Below, in pieces: positions 13,480 to 62,700 of a DNA stretch of 64,000 nucleotides (position 1 is its first letter; each line of letters opens with the position of its first letter). The notes beneath the pieces were generated by a model. It had not been told where the DNA came from. It did not search any database and saw only the letters and a program-made list of their open reading frames with translations. A program made the translations under genes and the position numbers. The stretch is from Sporosarcina sp. (lineage in GTDB: Bacteria > Bacillota > Bacilli > Bacillales_A > Planococcaceae): positions 69,185-133,184 of the forward strand of contig JARIDO010000011.1 in assembly GCA_029263895.1 (NCBI GenBank), written 5' to 3'.

Positions 13480-13803
13480 TTAAGAAACTACTTTAAGCCC
13501 TACAACACCAATGATCACTAACAATAAACTAACGAAGCGCCCAACGCTTTTAGATTCTCCAAAGAAAATCATGTTTACAAGAACAGCACCAGCAGTCCCG
13601 ATACCAATCCAAACAGCATATGCCACACTTACTTGTAAATAATCGAAAGCTGCATATAAAAAAACAAATGATGCTCCAAAACCAACACCATAAAGAAGTC
13701 CGGTACTTAGTTTTTTCTCTTTACTATATTGGGCTAGACCAATAACACCGATAATTTCACTTGTTGCTGCTAAAATAACAAATAACCAACCCATTTTACA
13801 CAA
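13480..13803 (-). CDS. SMR-family efflux subunit, second of pair
   Basis: A 107-residue, four-helix small multidrug resistance protein. It carries the membrane-embedded glutamate (ATSEIIGVIGLAQYS), the YAVWIGIGTAGAVLVN motif of helix 3 and a short C-terminus GVVGLKVVS. Its start overlaps the stop of the other SMR gene by 8 bp. Paired SMR genes often make heteromeric antiporters (YkkCD, EbrAB), exporting quaternary ammonium or guanidinium-type cations; the substrate here is not known. Confidence 0.9.
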   Translation of the reverse strand: MCKMGWLFVILAATSEIIGVIGLAQYSKEKKLSTGLLYGVGFGASFVFLYAAFDYLQVSVAYAVWIGIGTAGAVLVNMIFFGESKSVGRFVSLLLVIIGVVGLKVVS

Positions 13804-14158
13804 TTCCTTTCTTCGTTTTCTTCTCTTCTATTGCATCAACTAAGTTCAAGCCAATAACACCGACTAATAAAATCAATATGAAGATGATTTTACTCATATT
13901 TAAACTTTGTTCGAAAAAGAAAACGTCCATAAGCGCTGTACCCACTGTTCCAATTCCAGCAAAAGTAGCGTACACCGTTCCCGTAGGTAAATCTTTACAT
14001 GCCAAAGTTAAATAATGAAAGTCAATGAATATAAATAAAACGATGAATATCCAATGCCACCATTCACTCGCTACGTTAAAACCAAAAATCCATACTAATT
14101 CAAAAAAACTTGTCATTGCTACATAAAACCAAGATTTATTCATAGTTATTCTCCTCAA
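13796..14158 (-). CDS. SMR-family efflux subunit, first of pair
   Basis: A 120-residue, four-helix SMR protein opening with MNKSWFYVAMTSFFELVWIFG, where the glutamate is the coupling residue of the family. YATFAGIGTVGTALMDVFFF is the helix-3 motif. It has a longer, lysine-rich tail (EEKKTKKG) than its partner, as seen in one subunit of heteromeric pairs. An inverted repeat matching the one before the upstream TetR gene lies 24-40 bp before the start, so control by that TetR is likely. A likely start is the internal ATG (MNKSWF), 4 codons in. Confidence 0.88.
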   Translation of the reverse strand: MRRITMNKSWFYVAMTSFFELVWIFGFNVASEWWHWIFIVLFIFIDFHYLTLACKDLPTGTVYATFAGIGTVGTALMDVFFFEQSLNMSKIIFILILLVGVIGLNLVDAIEEKKTKKGIV

Positions 14159-14181
14159 TTAAAATTGATTTACTCTCTTTG

Positions 14182-14198
14182 TGACTGACAGTCATTCA
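14182..14198. promoter_or_regulatory. putative TetR operator O1
   Basis: TGACTGACAGTCATTCA is a near-perfect palindrome with arms TGACTGAC and GTCATTCA about a central base. A copy differing at a single position within this 17-bp stretch sits before the TetR gene (14846-14862), and both continue TTATA. Its placement just upstream of the SMR genes fits repression of the pump. Confidence 0.72.
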
Positions 14199-14242
14199 TT
14201 ATACAATTAAATAGTTAGCTGAACGTATTCTGCTTGAATTAA

Positions 14243-14818
14243 TTACCTTATAATTCCAAGTGCGTGATACAAAAATTCGATTACTTCTTTTTTCTGTTTC
14301 CCTGCCTGCTCTTCTTGGTTTGAATCGTATAGATATACTTGTTCAGCAGCAGATTCCACAAGACCTATAATGAGTTTCGCAGTCGTTTCCGGATTAATAG
14401 AAGAACGAACAACCGCTTCATTTCTCGCGCTTTTTAGTAGTTCGTGGACCCATGAATATATAGGTGCATAGACTGTTTCCCATTCTTTTAAATGTTCTGT
14501 AGAAGCAAGTCCTGAGTATATTAACGCTTGTACTTCACGATAGTCATGCGTTACTTTAAATATCGCCTCAACTAATTGTTCAAGTTTTATGGGAATTGAA
14601 ACGTCTTCTTTGACTGTATCTTCTACAATCGCCAATGTTTTTTCAACCATAACTTCAGCGATTGCTGGCATTAATGAAAGTTTCGAAGGAAAGTACAAAT
14701 AAAAAGTCCCTTGAGCAATGCCCGCCTCTTTTACAATATCCGAAATTTTTGTCTTATCTATACCTTTTTCTTTGAACACAAGAATTGCAGCAGCTACAAT
14801 TGATCTTTTCTTATCCAA
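14243..14818 (-). CDS. TetR-family repressor of the SMR pump
   Basis: The helix-turn-helix near the N-terminus reads ILVFKEKGIDKTKISDIVKEAGIAQGTFYLYFPSK, the classic TetR signature. The rest is a helical ligand domain ending FLYHALGIIR. The TTG at 14818 (LDKKRSIVAAAI) was chosen because AAGGAGTGG lies 7-10 bp upstream; ATG at 14839 is an alternative. With this start the protein has 191 residues. It lies directly upstream of the SMR pair on the same strand and shares their operator, so it most likely represses both the pump and itself. Confidence 0.88.
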   Translation of the reverse strand: MDKKRSIVAAAILVFKEKGIDKTKISDIVKEAGIAQGTFYLYFPSKLSLMPAIAEVMVEKTLAIVEDTVKEDVSIPIKLEQLVEAIFKVTHDYREVQALIYSGLASTEHLKEWETVYAPIYSWVHELLKSARNEAVVRSSINPETTAKLIIGLVESAAEQVYLYDSNQEEQAGKQKKEVIEFLYHALGIIR

Positions 14819-14845
14819 TATTTCACCACTCCTTTTCATTGAAAA

Positions 14846-14862
14846 TGACTGACTGTCATTCA
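14846..14862. promoter_or_regulatory. putative TetR operator O2
   Basis: TGACTGACTGTCATTCA matches O1 at 16 of 17 positions in the same orientation and lies about 28 bp before the TTG start of the TetR gene, the expected place for autoregulation. Confidence 0.72.
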
Positions 14863-14894
14863 TTATAAATAAAAATTCACGATTTAGCAACTTA

Positions 14895-14930
14895 AAAACA
14901 ATTCGCCTATTGGTTGAATAGGCGAATTGG
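14895..14930 (-). terminator. intrinsic terminator of the VLRF1-type gene
   Basis: An 11-bp perfect stem, ATTCGCCTATT with AATAGGCGAAT, is followed on the minus strand by a GTTTTT tail, just after the release-factor homologue stop codon. Confidence 0.85.
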
Positions 14931-14933
14931 CAT

Positions 14934-15728
14934 TTATTTTTCAAAAACTTCAGCTAGGATTCTGCTTGCACTTCGGTTGTTCATATTCTTGTGAACTGTA
15001 CTCTGAGGTTTTTCTCTTAAAGTTTTAGCGAATGAGTTTGCTAAATCCGCCTCCCCCATCACATGAATTTCCCTCCACTTCTTCTCTTTTTTTAGTCGCT
15101 CGACTACTGTGCCCATGTCTTTATAAAATCGTTCTAGGTTCTCCCGTAGTCGATCATCTAAATCATCTCGTTTTGTTCCACCAGATCCTTTTGTTTGCGA
15201 TGAGTTAGTTCCTTCTTGTTCTTTCCAAACTTCCAGTCCCGAGTCAAATGCATAAGTCCATTCATCAAAAACAACACCCATCGCTGTATCTATAATTTTC
15301 ACTTCCCCGAAACTTGGTAATACAACTCCTGATTCCGGATATGCTTTTAACATATACTTCAATTCCTCAGTAACCGCATGATTCTCCCAATGGAAACTTG
15401 TCTTCACAGGTACTTGAACATAATGTACTGACCATAATTCTGGAGTAGCTGATGCGAAAATAACGACCCCTTTATTCAATTCAAACTGATTATGTTCAAT
15501 TTCATTCATCACTTTTTCTTTTACAGCTCTATATGCTTTTATTTCATCTTCGTTGTTCGCCAATGTTAAGTATTCATCAATTCGTTTTAAACCGTTTTTT
15601 AAATGGATTCTCCAAGCACCCTTTTGTTGCTCTGGATCTGCTGGATTTGTGTTTAAGTAAACGCTTAATACACATCGCTCATCACAGTGAAATTCCTTCA
15701 GTTCTTGAAGTTCATTACTTAGTGTCAT
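14934..15728 (-). CDS. VLRF1/aeRF1-type release-factor homologue
   Basis: A 264-residue cytoplasmic protein. The opening ELKEFHCDERCVLSVYLNTNPADPEQQKGAWRIHLKNGLKRI is characteristic of the bacterial archaeo-eukaryotic RF1-like (baeRF/VLRF1) group, followed by GVVIFASATPELWSVHYVQVP and a C-terminal eL30-like segment (REIHVMGEADLANSFAKTL). Relatives of the VLRF1/Vms1 group release peptidyl-tRNA from stalled ribosomes. Whether this protein does so is inference. A charged, low-complexity linker lies near residues 175-190. Confidence 0.7.
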   Translation of the reverse strand: MTLSNELQELKEFHCDERCVLSVYLNTNPADPEQQKGAWRIHLKNGLKRIDEYLTLANNEDEIKAYRAVKEKVMNEIEHNQFELNKGVVIFASATPELWSVHYVQVPVKTSFHWENHAVTEELKYMLKAYPESGVVLPSFGEVKIIDTAMGVVFDEWTYAFDSGLEVWKEQEGTNSSQTKGSGGTKRDDLDDRLRENLERFYKDMGTVVERLKKEKKWREIHVMGEADLANSFAKTLREKPQSTVHKNMNNRSASRILAEVFEK

Positions 15729-19122: not shown

Positions 19123-19285
19123 AAAAAAACCTCTTTCTTTTCCGTAAGAAAGGAGGTTGGATACATCGTCCAAGCTCTTATCTTACAAGGGATTATTCTC
19201 CTTGTTGGAATTAGCACCTTCCTGACATTGCCAGAGGTTGCTGAAACATCATAGGGCCATTTCCCTCAGCTTCTCTCGATAAGAA
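19123..19285 (-). promoter_or_regulatory. SAM-I (S-box) riboswitch with terminator upstream of metA
   Basis: On the minus strand, the aptamer runs from about 19285 to 19175: CTTATCGAGAGAAGCTGAGG, then GGCCCTATGATGTTTCAGCAACC and GGAAGGTGCTAATTCC, the hallmark S-box blocks, closed by P1 strands TTCTTATC and GATAAGAG. A terminator follows (19159-19123), with stem AACCTCCTTTCTT / AAAGAAAGAGGTT and a T7 tail. SAM binding should stop transcription before metA. Confidence 0.95.
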
Positions 19286-24171: not shown

Positions 24172-24256
24172 ACACATTTACTAGTTAATACCATTGATAT
24201 TCGTTATTGAATGACGTAAAATGAATTCATAAGCTGCATTGTTCGTATACACATTA

Positions 24257-24484
24257 AGTTTTAACCTTTAAGCTGTAAACGGGAGTTTTATATAGAGGCA
24301 GGAATGGCAAGCCCAATTCTTTAACCAATTGGGACAGACAGGATTGTCTTTGCGAACACCCACTTCGAGGAGTGGTGGTTTAAAACTTTCTAACTACTAT
24401 ACGGCAAAAGCGGCTACGCTATTAAGCCTTGTATACCAAGGCTTTAACGGTGAAACACCATCCTTCATTGGATGGTGTTTTTTT
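24257..24484 (+). ncRNA. possible structured RNA of unknown class
   Basis: No credible ORF covers 24172-24490, yet the stretch is densely paired. AAGTTTTAACC (24257 onward) can pair with GGTTTAAAACTT near 24378, enclosing hairpins CCCAATT/AATTGGG, AGACA/TGTCT and a CCACT/AGTGG hairpin. AAGCCTTG/CAAGGCTT forms a further hairpin. The block ends in a textbook terminator, AAACACCATCC/GGATGGTGTTT with a T7 tail (24453-24484). I could not match it to 6S RNA, a T-box or a riboswitch. It directly precedes an ISL3 transposase remnant and could belong to an element. Confidence 0.4.
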
Positions 24485-28502: not shown

Positions 28503-28835
28503 TTGACATTTTACCAATCGTATGGGAAAATGAATAAGTTAACACCAAAGGTAACTTTTAAGATTTGAAAATATGGCATTCTACGTTTTGTTTTTGAGAA
28601 TACTTATTCACACTGGCGCGACTATAGGGTCGCAAGGACGCAAAAGAAGGTAGGGTTTGCGTTGCTTAAGTTAGAAGACACCCAGTGGAACAATGACCGC
28701 GGCACCGAAAGTATTTACTTTCATCGGAAATTATTCCCCGAGTTTTCGGGATGAAAAATAACCTTCATAACTTTACTGTTACCTTACAAATCAAAGGGAT
28801 GTTCTCTAACGAGAGCATCCCTTTTCCAATGCTCA
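28503..28835 (+). ncRNA. orphan structured RNA candidate with own promoter
   Basis: This 396-bp gap has no credible ORF. A TTGACA at 28503-28508 and GAAAAT 17 bp later make a promoter. The expected transcript starts near 28538 with AAGGTAAC, which can pair with GTTACCTT near 28779. Inside, CACTGG pairs with CCAGTG around hairpins GCGAC/GTCGC and ACGCAAA/TTTGCGT; further hairpins are CCCGA/TCGGG and an AAGT/ACTT one. It ends in a terminator, AAGGGATG/CATCCCTT with flanking pairs (about 28793-28831). It is not tmRNA, RNase P or SRP RNA by their conserved blocks. Confidence 0.5.
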
Positions 28836-30103: not shown

Positions 30104-30493
30104 CTACTCAATTACCACAAATACTTTGTCGCCATTTGCCGATGTGATGTCAACAATTTGTCCGTCCAATTCATTTTCAATTGCTTCTGTGAGCAGCTCA
30201 ATGTTAATATCTTTAACATACTTCTCAGCCTCAGGTATTTTTTCTGCAATATTTGTACCAACTTTTAAAACAGCCTTTATTAAATTAATCGGTAGATTCA
30301 CATTTACGTTATCGCCTTCATCAGATGTCACGCGAATTTTCAACATTTTATTCCCATAAGGAACGTTTTCATTTACTGATTCTACTTCTGAATGACCATT
30401 ACTTTGTAAGATAGTAATTAGTTCACTTGCTTTCTCCTTATCGATTTTCCCTTCATCCATCATCGTTAAGACTCTCGAAATTTCATCCTTCAT
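30104..30493 (-). CDS. SHOCT-like-domain protein
   Basis: A 129-residue protein. The N-terminal MKDEISRVLTMMDEGKIDKEKASELITIL is a short helical hairpin of the SHOCT-like/YvlB N-terminal type (L-x3-G-x-I-x4-A-x-x-L). A beta-rich part follows (MLKIRVTSDEGDNVNVNLPINLIKAVLK). It lies between the DUF2089 gene (2 bp) and the small last gene (3 bp). Related proteins in Bacillus accompany envelope-stress genes; the role here is unknown. Confidence 0.78.
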   Translation of the reverse strand: MKDEISRVLTMMDEGKIDKEKASELITILQSNGHSEVESVNENVPYGNKMLKIRVTSDEGDNVNVNLPINLIKAVLKVGTNIAEKIPEAEKYVKDINIELLTEAIENELDGQIVDITSANGDKVFVVIE

Positions 30494-30495
30494 TG

Positions 30496-30864
30496 TTATT
30501 CCCCCTCCTTTAATAGTTGAATTGCTTTGTCCGCCGTAATTTCACCTTTTTCTAATAACGCTACAACTTTTTTCTTATCCACTTCTGTTTTCTTTTGTGT
30601 GGAATATCCCAAAGCAGAGATAATTTCATCTAATTTCCCTCGAACAGTCGGATAGGAAATTCCGAGTTCCTTCTCAACCTCTTTAATATTTCCACGGCTT
30701 TTAAGAAAAACTTCGATAAAATGCAATTGTTCATGGCCAAGTGCGGCCAGTTTTGAAACTTCAAATTCATTTTCTACCGTTGTCTGGCAATGGTTACACT
30801 GTAACTTAGTGATTTTTAGCTGCTTGCTGCAAACAGGACAATTTGTTAATAAAGGATAAGCCAT
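30496..30864 (-). CDS. DUF2089-family zinc-ribbon/HTH regulator
   Basis: A 122-residue protein with two CxxC pairs (CPVCSKQLKITKLQCNHC) forming a zinc ribbon, then a helix-turn-helix-like segment (LKSRGNIKEVEKELGISYPTVRGKLDEII). Its C-terminal VVALLEKGEITADKAIQLL resembles the N-terminal hairpin of the next gene's product. A DNA-binding autoregulator of the three-gene unit is a fair inference, and the upstream DNA is full of AT-rich repeats. Confidence 0.83.
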   Translation of the reverse strand: MAYPLLTNCPVCSKQLKITKLQCNHCQTTVENEFEVSKLAALGHEQLHFIEVFLKSRGNIKEVEKELGISYPTVRGKLDEIISALGYSTQKKTEVDKKKVVALLEKGEITADKAIQLLKEGE

Positions 30865-31072: not shown

Positions 31073-31480
31073 CTATTTGATAACCTTTTTTATGACTGTC
31101 AATATCAAAAAATGAATTACTCCACCAATTATTCCAAAGAACAACATCGAAATTAATAAATAAAATTCATTTAGAATGACTGCTACTAATAGTCCTACCA
31201 AGCCACCGGAACCTATATACAATAGTGCCTGTATCCACTGCGAATTGGTTTTTATTTTAGAAGAAAAGTCAATATAAATTGAGATTGGAAATGCTGCCAA
31301 CGCAAAGAATGGAAAAGAAAGAAGAGCCATTCCAAAGAAAGTTGGACCGAACTCCCCGTATTTTCCAGAAATTATTATAGAATAAAATGAACCGACAACA
31401 CCGAAAAGTACAGTAGAAATTAATACTGCTAAAACGTAGAGAGCTAAACGGTCAAATGTCACTTTTTTAGTTGTAGTCAT
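31073..31480 (-). CDS. four-helix membrane protein
   Basis: A 135-residue protein: a basic start (MTTTKKVTFDRLAL) and four hydrophobic helices (about residues 9-30, 41-62, 75-97, 102-130) ending LTVIKKVIK. The start at 31480 was chosen over an upstream ATG that would overlap the amidotransferase gene. It lies 37 bp after that gene and may be in its operon. No family is recognised. Confidence 0.65.
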   Translation of the reverse strand: MTTTKKVTFDRLALYVLAVLISTVLFGVVGSFYSIIISGKYGEFGPTFFGMALLSFPFFALAAFPISIYIDFSSKIKTNSQWIQALLYIGSGGLVGLLVAVILNEFYLLISMLFFGIIGGVIHFLILTVIKKVIK

Positions 31481-31517
31481 ATTCTGATCACTCTCTTTCT
31501 TTCCAATAAAGCGCAGC

Positions 31518-32222
31518 TCATGAACGACATTTCTTAATGAAATGGTCAAAGAGCTTAATAGAATCTTTATCATCATGTATCGCTAACTCTTCAGGATGCC
31601 ATTGAACACCTAGCACAAATTGATGTTCACACGATTCAATCGCTTCAATAATTCCATCTGTAGCGATACTAGCTAGTCTAAAACCCGGTGGCAATTTTTT
31701 AACGGATTGGTGATGAAATGAATTCACAATAAGTTTGTGATGATTGACGATTGTATGCAACAAACTTCCTTTCTCTACAGAAACTGAATGGGATGGATGT
31801 TTTCTTGGAGCGTTTTGATGGTGTTGATGAGACGTTCCCTCATGCTGTTGTACAATATCCTGATACACCTCTCCACCACAAACAATGCTAAGTACTTGGA
31901 TCCCTCGACAAATAGCAAGTATTGGCATATCTAACTCTAGTGCTCGTTGCACCAACGCTAACTCAAAAACATCTCTACTAGGGGTCACCTCACCAAGAGA
32001 ACGATGTGGTTCTTCATTGAATAGCAATGGATTCAAATCGTTGCCACCCGATAATAACAATCCTGATAAATTACTAAGCAATTGAGGAATATCTTCATCA
32101 TTACAAGCTGGAAGGATGATTGGTATACCTCCTGCTTGAATAATCGCTTGTACATAGGCGTTTTTTAACAATTGAGTATCAGTATTAGCAACATCAGCTG
32201 TAATACCTATCAATGGTTTCAT
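31518..32222 (-). CDS. PuuD-type gamma-glutamyl hydrolase
   Basis: The 234-residue class I glutamine-amidotransferase-like protein has the nucleophile motif ILAICRGIQVLSIVCGG, LSGGNDLNPLLF, and the His-Glu pair in FVLGVQWHPEEL. This is the gamma-glutamyl-gamma-aminobutyrate hydrolase (PuuD) group. It overlaps the upstream flavoprotein gene by 4 bp (ATGA), so the two are translationally coupled. No other puu genes are nearby, so the gamma-glutamyl substrate is not known. Confidence 0.9.
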   Translation of the reverse strand: MKPLIGITADVANTDTQLLKNAYVQAIIQAGGIPIILPACNDEDIPQLLSNLSGLLLSGGNDLNPLLFNEEPHRSLGEVTPSRDVFELALVQRALELDMPILAICRGIQVLSIVCGGEVYQDIVQQHEGTSHQHHQNAPRKHPSHSVSVEKGSLLHTIVNHHKLIVNSFHHQSVKKLPPGFRLASIATDGIIEAIESCEHQFVLGVQWHPEELAIHDDKDSIKLFDHFIKKCRS

Positions 32223-33921: not shown

Positions 33922-34239
33922 TTACTTTGTTAACGTATTAATAAAGTCTTCGATTTCTTCTTTTGATTTACGATTTTTACTAACAAATCTTCCTATTTCT
34001 TTACCGTTACTAAATCCAATAAAACTAGGTATACCAAAAATGTCTAGCTCACCACATAGGTCAATGAACTTATCGCGATCAACAGACACAAACGTAAATT
34101 CAGGATAGTCTACTTCAATTGCAGGTAGAAATGGTTCGATGACTCTACAATCCGGGCACCAGTCTGCCGTAAATAAAAAAATCGTACGCTCTTCATTTTT
34201 CAACGCATTAAATTGTTCAATTGAATGTAATTGTTCCAT
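33922..34239 (-). CDS. thioredoxin-family protein (CPDC)
   Basis: A 105-residue single-domain thioredoxin fold: TIFLFTADWCPDCRVIEPFL holds a CPDC active site in place of CGPC, and FGIPSFIGFSNGKEIGRFV contains the cis-Pro. The start MEQLHS at 34239 follows AAAGGAGAG. Bacillales carry several such small thioredoxin-like proteins of unknown partner. It lies between the flavoprotein and a GNAT gene, each with small gaps. Confidence 0.88.
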   Translation of the reverse strand: MEQLHSIEQFNALKNEERTIFLFTADWCPDCRVIEPFLPAIEVDYPEFTFVSVDRDKFIDLCGELDIFGIPSFIGFSNGKEIGRFVSKNRKSKEEIEDFINTLTK

Positions 34240-34300
34240 TATAAATCTCTCCTTTTTTTGAAGCTTATGTCTAATTATATCATTGTTAGAGATAAGAAAT

Positions 34301-35107
34301 TCATATTTTCTGTCTACTAAAACTCCACATACACCATTTCCCAATGTCTTTAAAGCCGATTCGTTTATATAGTGCACCTGCTGTTGGATTATCATAGAAC
34401 AAACAAAGCATTTTCCCTTCTTTTAATAGTTCCGAGCAAAGGGCAGACATACAGTAAGATGCTAGTCCTTTATTTTGATGGTTAGCAAGTGTAGCTACTC
34501 CAACAATCATAGCGGATTGACTATTTTCAGCTGTCGAAGATGCAGAACTAACAATGCTATTTTCGTCCTCTATATAATACGTTCTTGCTGAACCATTTTG
34601 CAATGACGTACGTTTTTGTTCAATATTATGCGCACTCGTACTAAACTCTGGAATTGCTACCATTTGCTCTATAATTCTAGGTGCATCGTTTGGTAGCGCT
34701 TTTTTGACTTGGACAGTTTTTGGAACAATGGCCAAGTCTTTAGCTTGCTCACATTTCGCATAAAATAACACGCGTGGATTTGATGGCTGAACCGTTAAAA
34801 AAGGTTTCAGTTGCTCCACAATATACTCAATCCCTGAGATGAACTCAAAAGCAGTATCATTATTAATGATCGCTGCTATTCCCTCAGCATCAAATTCCGC
34901 TGGCGCGTAAACAATATAGTTACTATCGTATTTTAATAACACTGCCCGCAAATCACCCGATGTCGTGAAGTCTCCCCATAACGTTTGAATTGGGTTATCA
35001 AAACCGTACATTTCGATATCACCTATTATGAACAAATTTTCGGCTGGTTTTTTGGCAACAAAAGTTAGTGTCTGTGCACGATCATTCTCCATTAAAATTC
35101 TTATCAA
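34301..35107 (-). CDS. two-part GNAT-family N-acetyltransferase
   Basis: A 268-residue protein: an N-terminal degenerate half (ENLFIIGDIEMYGFDNPIQTLWG) and a C-terminal GNAT domain with MIVGVATLANHQNKGLASYCMSALC (acetyl-CoA loop NHQNKGLA) and LFYDNPTAGALYKRIGFKDIGKW. This layout is typical of FR47-like GNATs. The TTG at 35107 was chosen because GGGGG lies 8 bp upstream. Substrate unknown. Confidence 0.82.
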   Translation of the reverse strand: MIRILMENDRAQTLTFVAKKPAENLFIIGDIEMYGFDNPIQTLWGDFTTSGDLRAVLLKYDSNYIVYAPAEFDAEGIAAIINNDTAFEFISGIEYIVEQLKPFLTVQPSNPRVLFYAKCEQAKDLAIVPKTVQVKKALPNDAPRIIEQMVAIPEFSTSAHNIEQKRTSLQNGSARTYYIEDENSIVSSASSTAENSQSAMIVGVATLANHQNKGLASYCMSALCSELLKEGKMLCLFYDNPTAGALYKRIGFKDIGKWCMWSFSRQKI

Positions 35108-35254
35108 CTGTATCGCCCCCAATTTAGAGATAAATATACCATAAATAGGATTCCACATATACTCAGATTAGTAACTTACTATTTTTTCAAATCAACATTC
35201 ATAAAAAATGATTTTCTGGGGAACCTATTCCTTGTATGAAGAGGAGGTTTTCAA

Positions 35255-39376: not shown

Positions 39377-39599
39377 TAGGTTACCCCCTCATTACCTGTT
39401 CTCTCTTTGTTCGTTCAGCATGTTCTACTTAAGACTATACCAATACCACAATACAAAATTATACATTCCTGTCACTACTTCTTCAATATACTTTCTTGTT
39501 TCCTTTCTGATTACACAGTTTTTTCTGATTTTTCTATTGACTTATTTTTTTGGTTTGTTATGATTAGTCCTAATTCTATAAACCTCTAACTATTTTGAT

Positions 39600-39845
39600 G
39601 GAGATAAAATACATTTGAGATTCTTAAGAGAGCTGATGGGTGGTGAAAATCAGTGTTTCCAATGTATGATAGCACTCCTGAATAGATGGACTGAACGAGT
39701 AAGTAAGTCCATCCGTCACATGCACGTTATGCATGCTAACTAAGACTGTCATTTCTTTTGACAGTAAAAAAGGATGGTACCGCGTGAGCAAATCAGCTTT
39801 TCGCTCCTTACATTTGTAAGGGGATTGAACGGCTTTTTTTTATTT
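39600..39845 (+). promoter_or_regulatory. T-box leader, serine specifier (AGC)
   Basis: Stem I is closed by GGAG (39600-39603) and CTCC (39675-39678), with an upper stem ATACATT/AATGTAT (39609-39615 with 39661-39667). The AAGAGAGCTGATGGGTGGTG block is the conserved Stem I head. The bulge between the stems reads GAT-AGC-A, so AGC (39671-39673, Ser) is the specifier. The antiterminator AAGGATGGTACCGCG follows at about 39770-39784, then a terminator hairpin CCTTAC/GTAAGG and a T8 run. It controls the next two genes, both in serine metabolism. Confidence 0.9.
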
Positions 39846-59606: not shown

Positions 59607-59636
59607 TTTAGTTTATTTGAATGTAAACTGTAACCG

Positions 59637-59671
59637 AAATCGCCATTGCAAGTTACTTGCAATGGCGATTT
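59637..59671. terminator. terminator of katA
   Basis: A 16-bp perfect stem (59637-59652 with 59656-59671), 3-nt loop and a T6 end directly after katA. Confidence 0.92.
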
Positions 59672-59804
59672 TTTATTACCTATTATAATTGATTTCCCCG
59701 TTTAATAATGTAAAATAGATTATCTGTCCTGTAACATACTACGTAACGAAGAAAACTTCGATTAATAAATCCATAAAATTTAATTATAGGAAGAAGGTAT
59801 ATAG

Positions 59805-60613
59805 ATGAGCAACATAGTACATAGAAATAATGTACAAGTTTTGGGTACTGGTGAAAAAACTATCGTTTTTGCACATGGATTTGGTTGTGATCAAAACATG
59901 TGGAGATTCATCACTCCTCATTTCGAGAAAAATTATCGTGTTGTATTATTTGACCATGTTGGCTGTGGACGTTCTGATTGGACCGCATTCAATGCTGAGA
60001 AATATAATTCGTTACATCAATACGCCAATGATGTTCTTGAAATATTTGAAGAATTCAACATAGAAGATGCCATCTTTGTGGGGCATTCTGTCAGTTCAAT
60101 GATCGGCATGCTTGCATCGATTGCTAAGCCTAGGTACTTCGATAGTATTGTGATGATCGGACCATCCCCCTGTTATATGAACGAAGAACCGGACTATCAT
60201 GGTGGTTTCGACAAAGAGGACATTATTGAACTATTAGACATGATGCAACTGAACTTTGTTGGTTGGGCAAGCTATTTTGCACCGATAGCGATGAATAACC
60301 CCGAACTTCCTGGTTATGTTGAAGAATTGGAGTACAGCTTTTGTGCGACTAATCCAGCAATTACGAGACATTTTGCAGAGGTTACTTTTTTTCAGACCAT
60401 CGAAAAGATTTAACATACTCGAAAACTCCAACATTGATTTTACAATGTGCAGAAGATAGTATTGTCCCACTTAAAACCGGACAATATTTGCATGAAAGTC
60501 TTTATAACAGCACTTTTAAAGTAATGGACGCAAAAGGGCATTATCCACATTTAAGTCACCCTATTGAGACGATTAAGCATATACAAGATTATTTATCATT
60601 ATCACAGCCCTAA
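59805..60613 (+). pseudogene. RsbQ-like alpha/beta hydrolase, frameshifted
   Basis: The first 196 codons match RsbQ: VLGTGEKTIVFAHGFGCDQNMWRFI, CGRSDW, and nucleophile elbow VGHSVSSMIG. At T7 (60386-60392) the frame shifts; the intact frame ends in VTFFQTIEKI-stop (60413). With one extra T the ORF would continue as VTFFSDHRKDLTYSKTPTLI and reach a full RsbQ C-terminus at 60613, with the catalytic Asp in QCAEDSIVPL and His in DAKGHYPHLS. So the truncated product lacks two of three catalytic residues. It could be a real mutation, a sequencing error or a slippage site. Confidence 0.85.
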
Positions 60614-60637
60614 CTTGTAGTGAAAGGAAGTCAAGTA

Positions 60638-61621
60638 ATGTATTCACAAATGGATCACGCACCCGCGGGATTCTTCTCATTAACTGATTCAGGAATCTTG
60701 TTGGACGTCAACGACACCTTTTCAAAGATGCTTGAGTATGACAAAGAAGAACTGATTAATATGCACATTGAAACATTTATGTCAGTGCCAAACAAGTTCT
60801 TCTTTCACACGTACTTTTATCCATATATTCGACTATATGGCGTCGTTGAAGAGATGTATCTTTTATTAAAAACGAGCTCAGGTAAAAAAGTTCCCATATT
60901 ACTCTTTGGTCGAAAGTTTAAAGACAATATTGATGATAAAATCATTTGCGTTTGTGTTCATATCCCTAAACGAGTAGAATATGAAAAAGAAATTCGTTCA
61001 ATTAGTACCAAAGTTGAAGAAGCCTATCGTGAAAAAGATATTGTTGTTGAAAAACTAAATATATTGATAACAGAAAACGAGAAAAAGAATAAGGAATTAA
61101 CCGAGCTAAACAAAAAACTTGAAACACTTGCAACCACTGACTTGCTAACAGGATTATATAATCGTCAATTTTTTATTGTTGCACTCGCAAATATGATTCA
61201 TTCATTTGAACAAGATGACATTCCCTTCTCTTTAGCAATACTAGACATTGATTTTTTTAAAACAGTTAATGATACTTGGGGACACCTCGAAGGTGATCAA
61301 GTGCTTATTCAATTTGCAACGATAATGAAAGCAACTTTTGGTAAAGATGCTACACTAGTTCGCTACGGTGGAGAAGAATTTATAGCTCTTCTTCCTAACC
61401 TGACTCAAGAGGCAGCTGTCAATATAACGAATCAGTTCCGAATCGCTATTGAGAATGCTAACTGGGGCAAAGCTACTATTACTGTTAGCGCTGGAATCGC
61501 AACATATACAAAGACAGAAACAGATCAGTCATTGTTAACAATTGCCGATCGTGCTCTATACGCTTCAAAAGAAAATGGCAGAAATCGTGTCATCCATTCA
61601 GTAGAATTGATGGATTTATAA
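60638..61621 (+). CDS. RsbP-type PAS domain fused to GGDEF diguanylate cyclase
   Basis: A 327-residue soluble protein. Residues 1-110 form a PAS domain very like that of RsbP (DHAPAGFFSLTDSGILLDVN; FFHTYFYPYIRLYGVVEEMY), then a coiled coil (about 115-165) and a GGDEF domain with TTDLLTGLYNRQFF, LDIDFFKTVNDTWGH and the active motif VRYGGEEFIALLP. The I-site RxxD is absent (GKDA aligned), so no product inhibition is expected. The PP2C domain of RsbP is replaced. ATG 60638 follows AAAGGAAG, 24 bp after the RsbQ-like gene. Confidence 0.9.
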   Translation: MYSQMDHAPAGFFSLTDSGILLDVNDTFSKMLEYDKEELINMHIETFMSVPNKFFFHTYFYPYIRLYGVVEEMYLLLKTSSGKKVPILLFGRKFKDNIDDKIICVCVHIPKRVEYEKEIRSISTKVEEAYREKDIVVEKLNILITENEKKNKELTELNKKLETLATTDLLTGLYNRQFFIVALANMIHSFEQDDIPFSLAILDIDFFKTVNDTWGHLEGDQVLIQFATIMKATFGKDATLVRYGGEEFIALLPNLTQEAAVNITNQFRIAIENANWGKATITVSAGIATYTKTETDQSLLTIADRALYASKENGRNRVIHSVELMDL

Positions 61622-62618: not shown

Positions 62619-62700
62619 AGAATACACTACCATTTTAAGGATGTAAACCCTCAAAATGGTCAGTCGCTTTATTACAATGTCAATTGAACAAGTGTCTTCT

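Follow-up and report, generated by a model that had tools for sequence, protein, structure and literature searches.

A probable diguanylate cyclase-linked member of the RsbQ/RsbP-PAS sensing modules, with a frame-broken hydrolase gene, in a Sporosarcina draft genome

A gene for an RsbQ-type hydrolase and a gene for a PAS-GGDEF protein stand side by side in the window, i.e. the whole stretch of 64,000 nucleotides of Sporosarcina sp. DNA that was analysed (Table 1). We assign this locus, with a rough probability of 0.8, to the published sensing module of RsbQ and an RsbP-type PAS domain, in the form whose output is a diguanylate cyclase; the hydrolase frame is broken in this draft. Conservation of the pair among relatives and of most RsbP-PAS signature positions lends good support to an RsbQ/PAS module beside a diguanylate cyclase domain. 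The identity of the genes, their order and conservation, the motif residues and the broken frame are direct observations; for the pair in the window, we infer the contact between RsbQ and PAS, the direction of signalling and the activity of the cyclase.

Table 1. Positions of the features discussed (window coordinates unless loci are given)
Feature	Position or loci	Strand	Remarks
17-pair hairpin with a terminal T run, katA-rsbQ intergenic	59636..59672	+	-23.6 kcal/mol, z -7.67
RsbQ-type alpha/beta hydrolase, N-terminal 202 codons to premature stop	59805..60413	+	contains GHSV serine
Same hydrolase, C-terminal part	60386..60613	+	-1 frame, 75 residues + stop; CAED and GHYPH motifs
Seven-T run, site of the reading-frame break	60386..60392	+	sequence, compared with relatives
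RsbP-type PAS (Pfam, residues 9-106), linker (about 112-160), GGDEF (165-317)	60638..61621	+	327 aa
SAM riboswitch	19175-19285		Rfam
6S RNA	24228-24420		Rfam
BsrC-like RNA	28588-28675		Rfam
T-box leader	39586-39811		Rfam
RsbR-type STAS behind second RsbQ or rsbQ-PAS-GGDEF pair	L207, L209-L214, L216, L233, L234		genus g13

A sequence-only reading of the window had presented the exchange of the phosphatase output for a cyclase as something not seen described. This view had to be abandoned, as RsbQ-PAS with a cyclase output is already known. PMC3183031 (Nadezhdin, Brody and Price 2011), which has this finding in its title, reports in its available passages 45 pairs of RsbQ with an RsbP-type PAS, the outputs being a phosphatase, a histidine kinase or a diguanylate cyclase; cyclase outputs occur in both Gram-positive and Gram-negative bacteria. 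The available part of PMC12143880 (2025) repeats this output swap within a general model of exchangeable linkers. Like the cyclase module in those passages of PMC3183031, the window has the RsbQ gene directly upstream, an N-terminal RsbP-type PAS, a linker and a GGDEF domain; unlike it, the hydrolase is frame-broken, the PAS carries Ala10 and the cyclase is without RxxD. RsbQ-RsbP of B. subtilis, the energy branch of the sigma-B response, shares hydrolase family, PAS type and gene order with the window (order according to the same passages of PMC3183031), whereas RsbP acts on RsbV through a PP2C phosphatase output and the output of the window protein is GGDEF. In Moorella MtG, as far as the available part of PMC12143880 describes it, a sensor unit of sigma-B type feeds a cyclase instead of a phosphatase, as in the window, but the sensor is the N-terminal domain of RsbU with RsbT rather than PAS with RsbQ.

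The pairing is frequent in the window's family. RsbQ (E <= 1e-25) was found in 136 of 261 genomes and the RsbP-type PAS (E <= 1e-8) in 130 of 261. Among the RsbQ rows listed in the family search, 140 of 150 were followed on their own strand by a PAS match no more than 700 bases away, and 5 of 145 PAS rows were without a listed RsbQ. The open reading frames of the 140 partners had 300-363 aa in 121 cases, at least 390 aa in 15, and were shorter in 4. A phylum-wide sample contained RsbQ at E <= 1e-25 in 4 of 299 genomes, the window's own genome included. One RsbP-type PAS-phosphatase (L218:1820-3028, genome G146) stood without a listed RsbQ match next to it.

Partner domains were compared for 142 RsbQ loci, distinct in the first 190 residues. 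These comprised the window, the best loci of two family searches, the 4 loci of the phylum sample, the best 80 of 554 relative-encoding stretches from a genome-wide scan, which may have skipped entries close to that of the window, and stretches picked on purpose for long or odd partners. BLAST with the window domains revealed PAS plus GGDEF behind RsbQ in 117 of the 142 loci, PAS without GGDEF in 20, GGDEF without detected PAS in 2 and neither in 3, counts that are not frequencies because part of the sample was chosen. The genome survey proposed in the sequence-only reading came out in favour of a conserved pair. Thirteen of the 20 PAS-only partners were phosphatase-like by motif (3 of the 13 checked by Pfam), two were histidine kinases (Gelidibacter, L148, and an Acidobacteria draft, L150), and five were short, cut or ambiguous (L065, L066, L135, L136 and L192). 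Outside Bacillota, RsbQ with 57-60% identity was present in Leptolyngbya (L128), Gelidibacter and the Acidobacteria draft, and that of Leptolyngbya adjoins a GGEEF-bearing protein.

A quick RsbQ tree omitted 7 loci (partner missing, ambiguous or STAS) and one short RsbQ and included 8 additional second-RsbQ and 3 first-RsbQ rows; once near-copies had been removed, 106 of 144 rows remained. GGDEF was the label given to every row without a known phosphatase, kinase or STAS partner. On the tree, 3 changes, the least possible, account for the four partner labels, implying that partner changes are few in this set. The 10 phosphatase-linked rows formed one group (SH-aLRT 100) with the window outside. 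The window was labelled with the cyclase-linked majority and fell inside no starred group; the highest RsbQ identity to it was 65% (L079, Metabacillus fastidiosus).

For the second gene, the preferred start is ATG 60638, which is preceded by AAAGGAAG and lies 24 bases past the hydrolase stop, and not GTG 60620. The encoded protein gave Pfam matches to PAS_9 (E 6.1e-8) and to GGDEF (PF00990, 132.5 bits, E 1.5e-38, profile positions 1-161 of 161). As claimed in the sequence-only reading, GGEEF is intact and the I-site is missing: the active-site motif of the full domain is RYGGEEF, and the I-site position reads GKDA instead of RxxD. This inhibitory site is not needed for catalysis; RxxD is present in 81 of 118 GGDEF partners and absent in 37, the window included. 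PF07228 (PP2C/SpoIIE output) was not found in the window protein by Pfam, and the idea that the protein might be an RsbP with a degenerate PP2C domain was ruled out by this domain result. Residues 112-160 are charged and leucine-rich, as read from the sequence alone; the module as defined in PMC3183031 calls for a coiled-coil linker of at least 21 residues.

At the nine PAS positions tested in B. subtilis, the window protein has A10, F13, M48, K53, F55, F56, Y59, E72 and P86, and it has P62 in addition. Position counts were taken from 103 relatives aligned without gaps, loci without anchor residues having been dropped. Hardly any variation occurs at Y59 (100), P62 (103), E72 (100) and P86 (98). 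All 103 relatives carry either M (65) or L at position 48, and the residue at position 55 is F in 50 of them and I in 40. Ala10 of the window contrasts with the Cys found there in 102 of the 103 relatives. According to the available passages of PMC3183031, the L48A, F55A, Y59A and E72A variants of B. subtilis RsbP are null and P86A is weak, and C10A lowers the response, with the RsbP level at 50-60% of wild type. The frame-broken hydrolase and Ala10 together could mean that the coupling is lost in this lineage. The domain is the most N-terminal one, has F55, Y59, E72 and P86, with M and not L at position 48, and no DIT triplet occurs in the whole window PAS-GGDEF protein; its earlier classification as RsbP-type was therefore confirmed.

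The hydrolase is written in two reading frames. Residues 1-197 of the first open reading frame aligned with B. subtilis RsbQ (1wom positions 4-200, E 1e-70), and 71 of the 75 residues of the -1 frame piece matched RsbQ 198-268 (E 2.4e-21), the two pieces jointly covering RsbQ almost completely. RsbQ continues across the T run in the -1 frame, so the gene is split at this run. The GHSV serine sits in the first frame, and CAED and GHYPH, whose Asp and His are presumably catalytic, sit in the -1 frame. The triad is thus not in one reading frame, and the hydrolase as written would be without its presumed Asp and His, pointing to either a recent loss or a sequence or assembly error. The earlier description of an RsbQ-like hydrolase beside a PAS-GGDEF protein accordingly stands for the pair, as evident from 1wom and Pfam, but not for an intact hydrolase open reading frame, which ends at 60413.

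Relatives were compared at the site of the break. The RsbQ open reading frame had at least 255 aa in 139 of the 142 distinct loci, the exceptions being the window and two loci of its genus (L027 and L191); by a motif search, 133 of the 139 contain the three triad motifs. At the T run, 175 of 180 locus rows (duplicates included) kept the frame, and the 5 out-of-frame rows came from the window locus (three copies) and genome G211 (two). G211, which belongs to the same genus (L027, L189), is the sole other genome found with a break at this site and has six T. In-frame relatives have two to seven T; the idea that they always carry shorter runs was ruled out by four in-frame rows with seven T, and run length alone is therefore not a mark of error. 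Similarity to relatives does not drop from the N-terminal to the C-terminal piece (62 and 66% identity to L004, respectively), indicating that the break is either recent or an error. In another genome of the genus (G190, L028), RsbQ is intact and the PAS-GGDEF gene is split in two frames inside PAS.

A true pseudogene, with a cyclase that now acts without the hydrolase, has just short of an even chance of being the right explanation. It agrees with a break that falls between the GHSV serine and the presumed Asp and His, with the departure of PAS position 10 from 102 of 103 relatives, with in-frame stops in further genes for stress and c-di-GMP functions in this draft, and with the seven T of four in-frame rows, which deprive run length of its value as a sign of error. 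The undecayed C-terminal part and the intact reading frame of PAS-GGDEF argue against it. That the break is a homopolymer sequencing or assembly error and that the living organism has an intact hydrolase is quite conceivable, at somewhat less than even odds. The location within a seven-T run, where the sole other broken genome has six T, and the undecayed state of both sides fit such an error. In addition, no gene-half pair was found among the same-strand open reading frames at 13480-15728, 30104-30864, 31073-32222 and 33922-35158, a partial check in that 31073-31576 was without a family and both members of the pair at 30104-30864 gave a weak SHOCT-like match; two SMR-type open reading frames each match nearly the whole profile and hence are not two gene halves. 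On the other hand, no second homopolymer break came to light in the draft, and relatives stay in frame with anything from two to seven T. A slippery site, at which a -1 ribosomal shift or polymerase slippage would yield a short and a full hydrolase as a regulated or phase-variable switch, is improbable: the C-terminal frame is -1, the T run is of the slippery kind and the frame is broken there in one more genome of the genus, but the in-frame state of 175 of 180 rows and the length of 139 of 142 RsbQ open reading frames speak against it, and a conserved programmed frameshift was rejected as the main reading on the former count.

The window's genome is a draft of 2.31 Mb in 51 contigs with a completeness of 78.95%. 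Its parts for c-di-GMP signalling over the Pfam cut-offs are 10 GGDEF, 3 EAL and 2 PilZ matches, and 2 further EAL matches fall under the cut-off. In-frame stops were present in 2 of the 10 GGDEF matches (at C6 and C31), in 1 of the 3 EAL matches (at C31) and in an RsbR-like gene at C41, so that decay of genes, or errors in the sequence, extend beyond rsbQ. Four SpoIIE matches, one of them under the cut-off, all lie on contigs other than that of the window. C15 carries a sigma-B cluster, in which the sigma-B match at 64079 is flanked by SpoIIE-type phosphatase matches at 62649 and 64957. The window copy is the only RsbP-type PAS found at E <= 1e-8 in this incomplete draft.

The hairpin upstream of rsbQ is likely a terminator, although a pattern scan listed no terminator. 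A catalase gene lies upstream of the hairpin, and the gene downstream of PAS-GGDEF is convergent. By position, the pair thus looks like its own transcription unit, and rsbQ and the cyclase gene probably form a two-gene unit. A promoter scan was uninformative (10 sites versus 10.1 expected). Elsewhere in the window, two genes for transporters of the small multidrug resistance type lie behind a TetR-type regulator (13480-14944).

A different neighbourhood was encountered in g13, a sister genus within the window's family. Ten of the 150 RsbQ rows were without a detected PAS, and all ten loci were inspected. In seven of them, all from g13, RsbQ lies directly before a STAS protein of 284-293 aa. 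In G073, a GGDEF open reading frame follows the PAS-less RsbQ row, and no rsbR-like gene was found directly behind that RsbQ in the stretch inspected for G103 and G109. An eighth RsbQ-STAS case was seen in an adjoining stretch (G105, STAS protein of 301 aa). All 8 proteins behind RsbQ matched the STAS domain, and residues 130-279 of the one g13 STAS protein tested matched RsbR of stressosome structures (E 3e-27). Neighbourhoods were counted for the 40 best matches to this protein (E 6e-86 or better). In 21 of the 40, the rsbR-like gene lies downstream of a second RsbQ or of an rsbQ-PAS pair: 7 sit at most 700 bases behind a listed RsbQ, and 14 have RsbQ plus a PAS match further upstream, with a second RsbQ in between in the case of G105. 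Two of the 14 were fully read (L233 and L234): rsbQ comes first, PAS-GGDEF second and the rsbR-like gene third, and the spacings between them, counted with the stop codon, are 15-17 and 60-97 bases. The remaining 19 have neither RsbQ nor PAS within 4 kb among the rows compared, and the upstream stretches read for four of them (L229-L232) contained no RsbQ or GGDEF open reading frame. In the tree, which retained 5 of their 8 rows, the second RsbQ genes group together (SH-aLRT 99). In the window, no rsbR-like gene is next to the rsbQ/PAS-GGDEF pair.

RsbR is not among the three outputs named in the available passages of PMC3183031, and a pairing of RsbQ with RsbR was not found in the titles, abstract openings and some passages of the open-licence literature. 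The arrangement raises the tentative idea, with clearly less than even odds, that in g13 the RsbQ module is wired to the stressosome as well, beyond phosphatases, kinases and cyclases. An RsbR-type protein is a possible fourth partner of the module, and by gene neighbourhood RsbQ and RsbR are candidates for an interaction in g13. This neighbourhood may be a newer finding than the pairing of RsbQ with the cyclase.

The window hydrolase shares the alpha/beta hydrolase family with the plant receptors KAI2 and D14, a kinship already pointed out in the sequence-only reading and substantiated by the plant matches (best E 2.3e-51, KAI2 about 1e-47 and D14 about 1e-45). In plants, KAI2 and D14 act as ligand receptors, and their partners are F-box/SMXL proteins, not PAS proteins. 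In the proposed mechanism, the hydrolase would bind, and perhaps hydrolyse, a small molecule and would contact the F-alpha helix of the PAS domain; the change would travel via the dimeric linker and set the activity of GGDEF, raising c-di-GMP. By homology, an intact pair should relay a signal from the hydrolase via the linker to the dimeric cyclase. Because the hydrolase gene is frame-broken, this wiring may be cut in the present genome. For B. subtilis, the available passages of PMC3183031 report from experiment that RsbQ contacts PAS via F55 and Y59 and that the triad is required; there, the authors call energy sensing an assumption that "may be gratuitous". An assay showing any RsbQ controlling a cyclase was not found in those parts of the open-licence literature that were available.

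The broken copy in the window is a caution against claiming function from one draft genome. In the window's family, RsbQ, a cytoplasmic hydrolase and kin to plant hormone receptors, pairs mostly with PAS-GGDEF and not with its namesake sigma-B phosphatase. For a ligand search, c-di-GMP would offer a convenient readout. The RsbR link in g13, if functional, would join two stress-signalling systems, and one hydrolase signal would then set both c-di-GMP and stressosome output.
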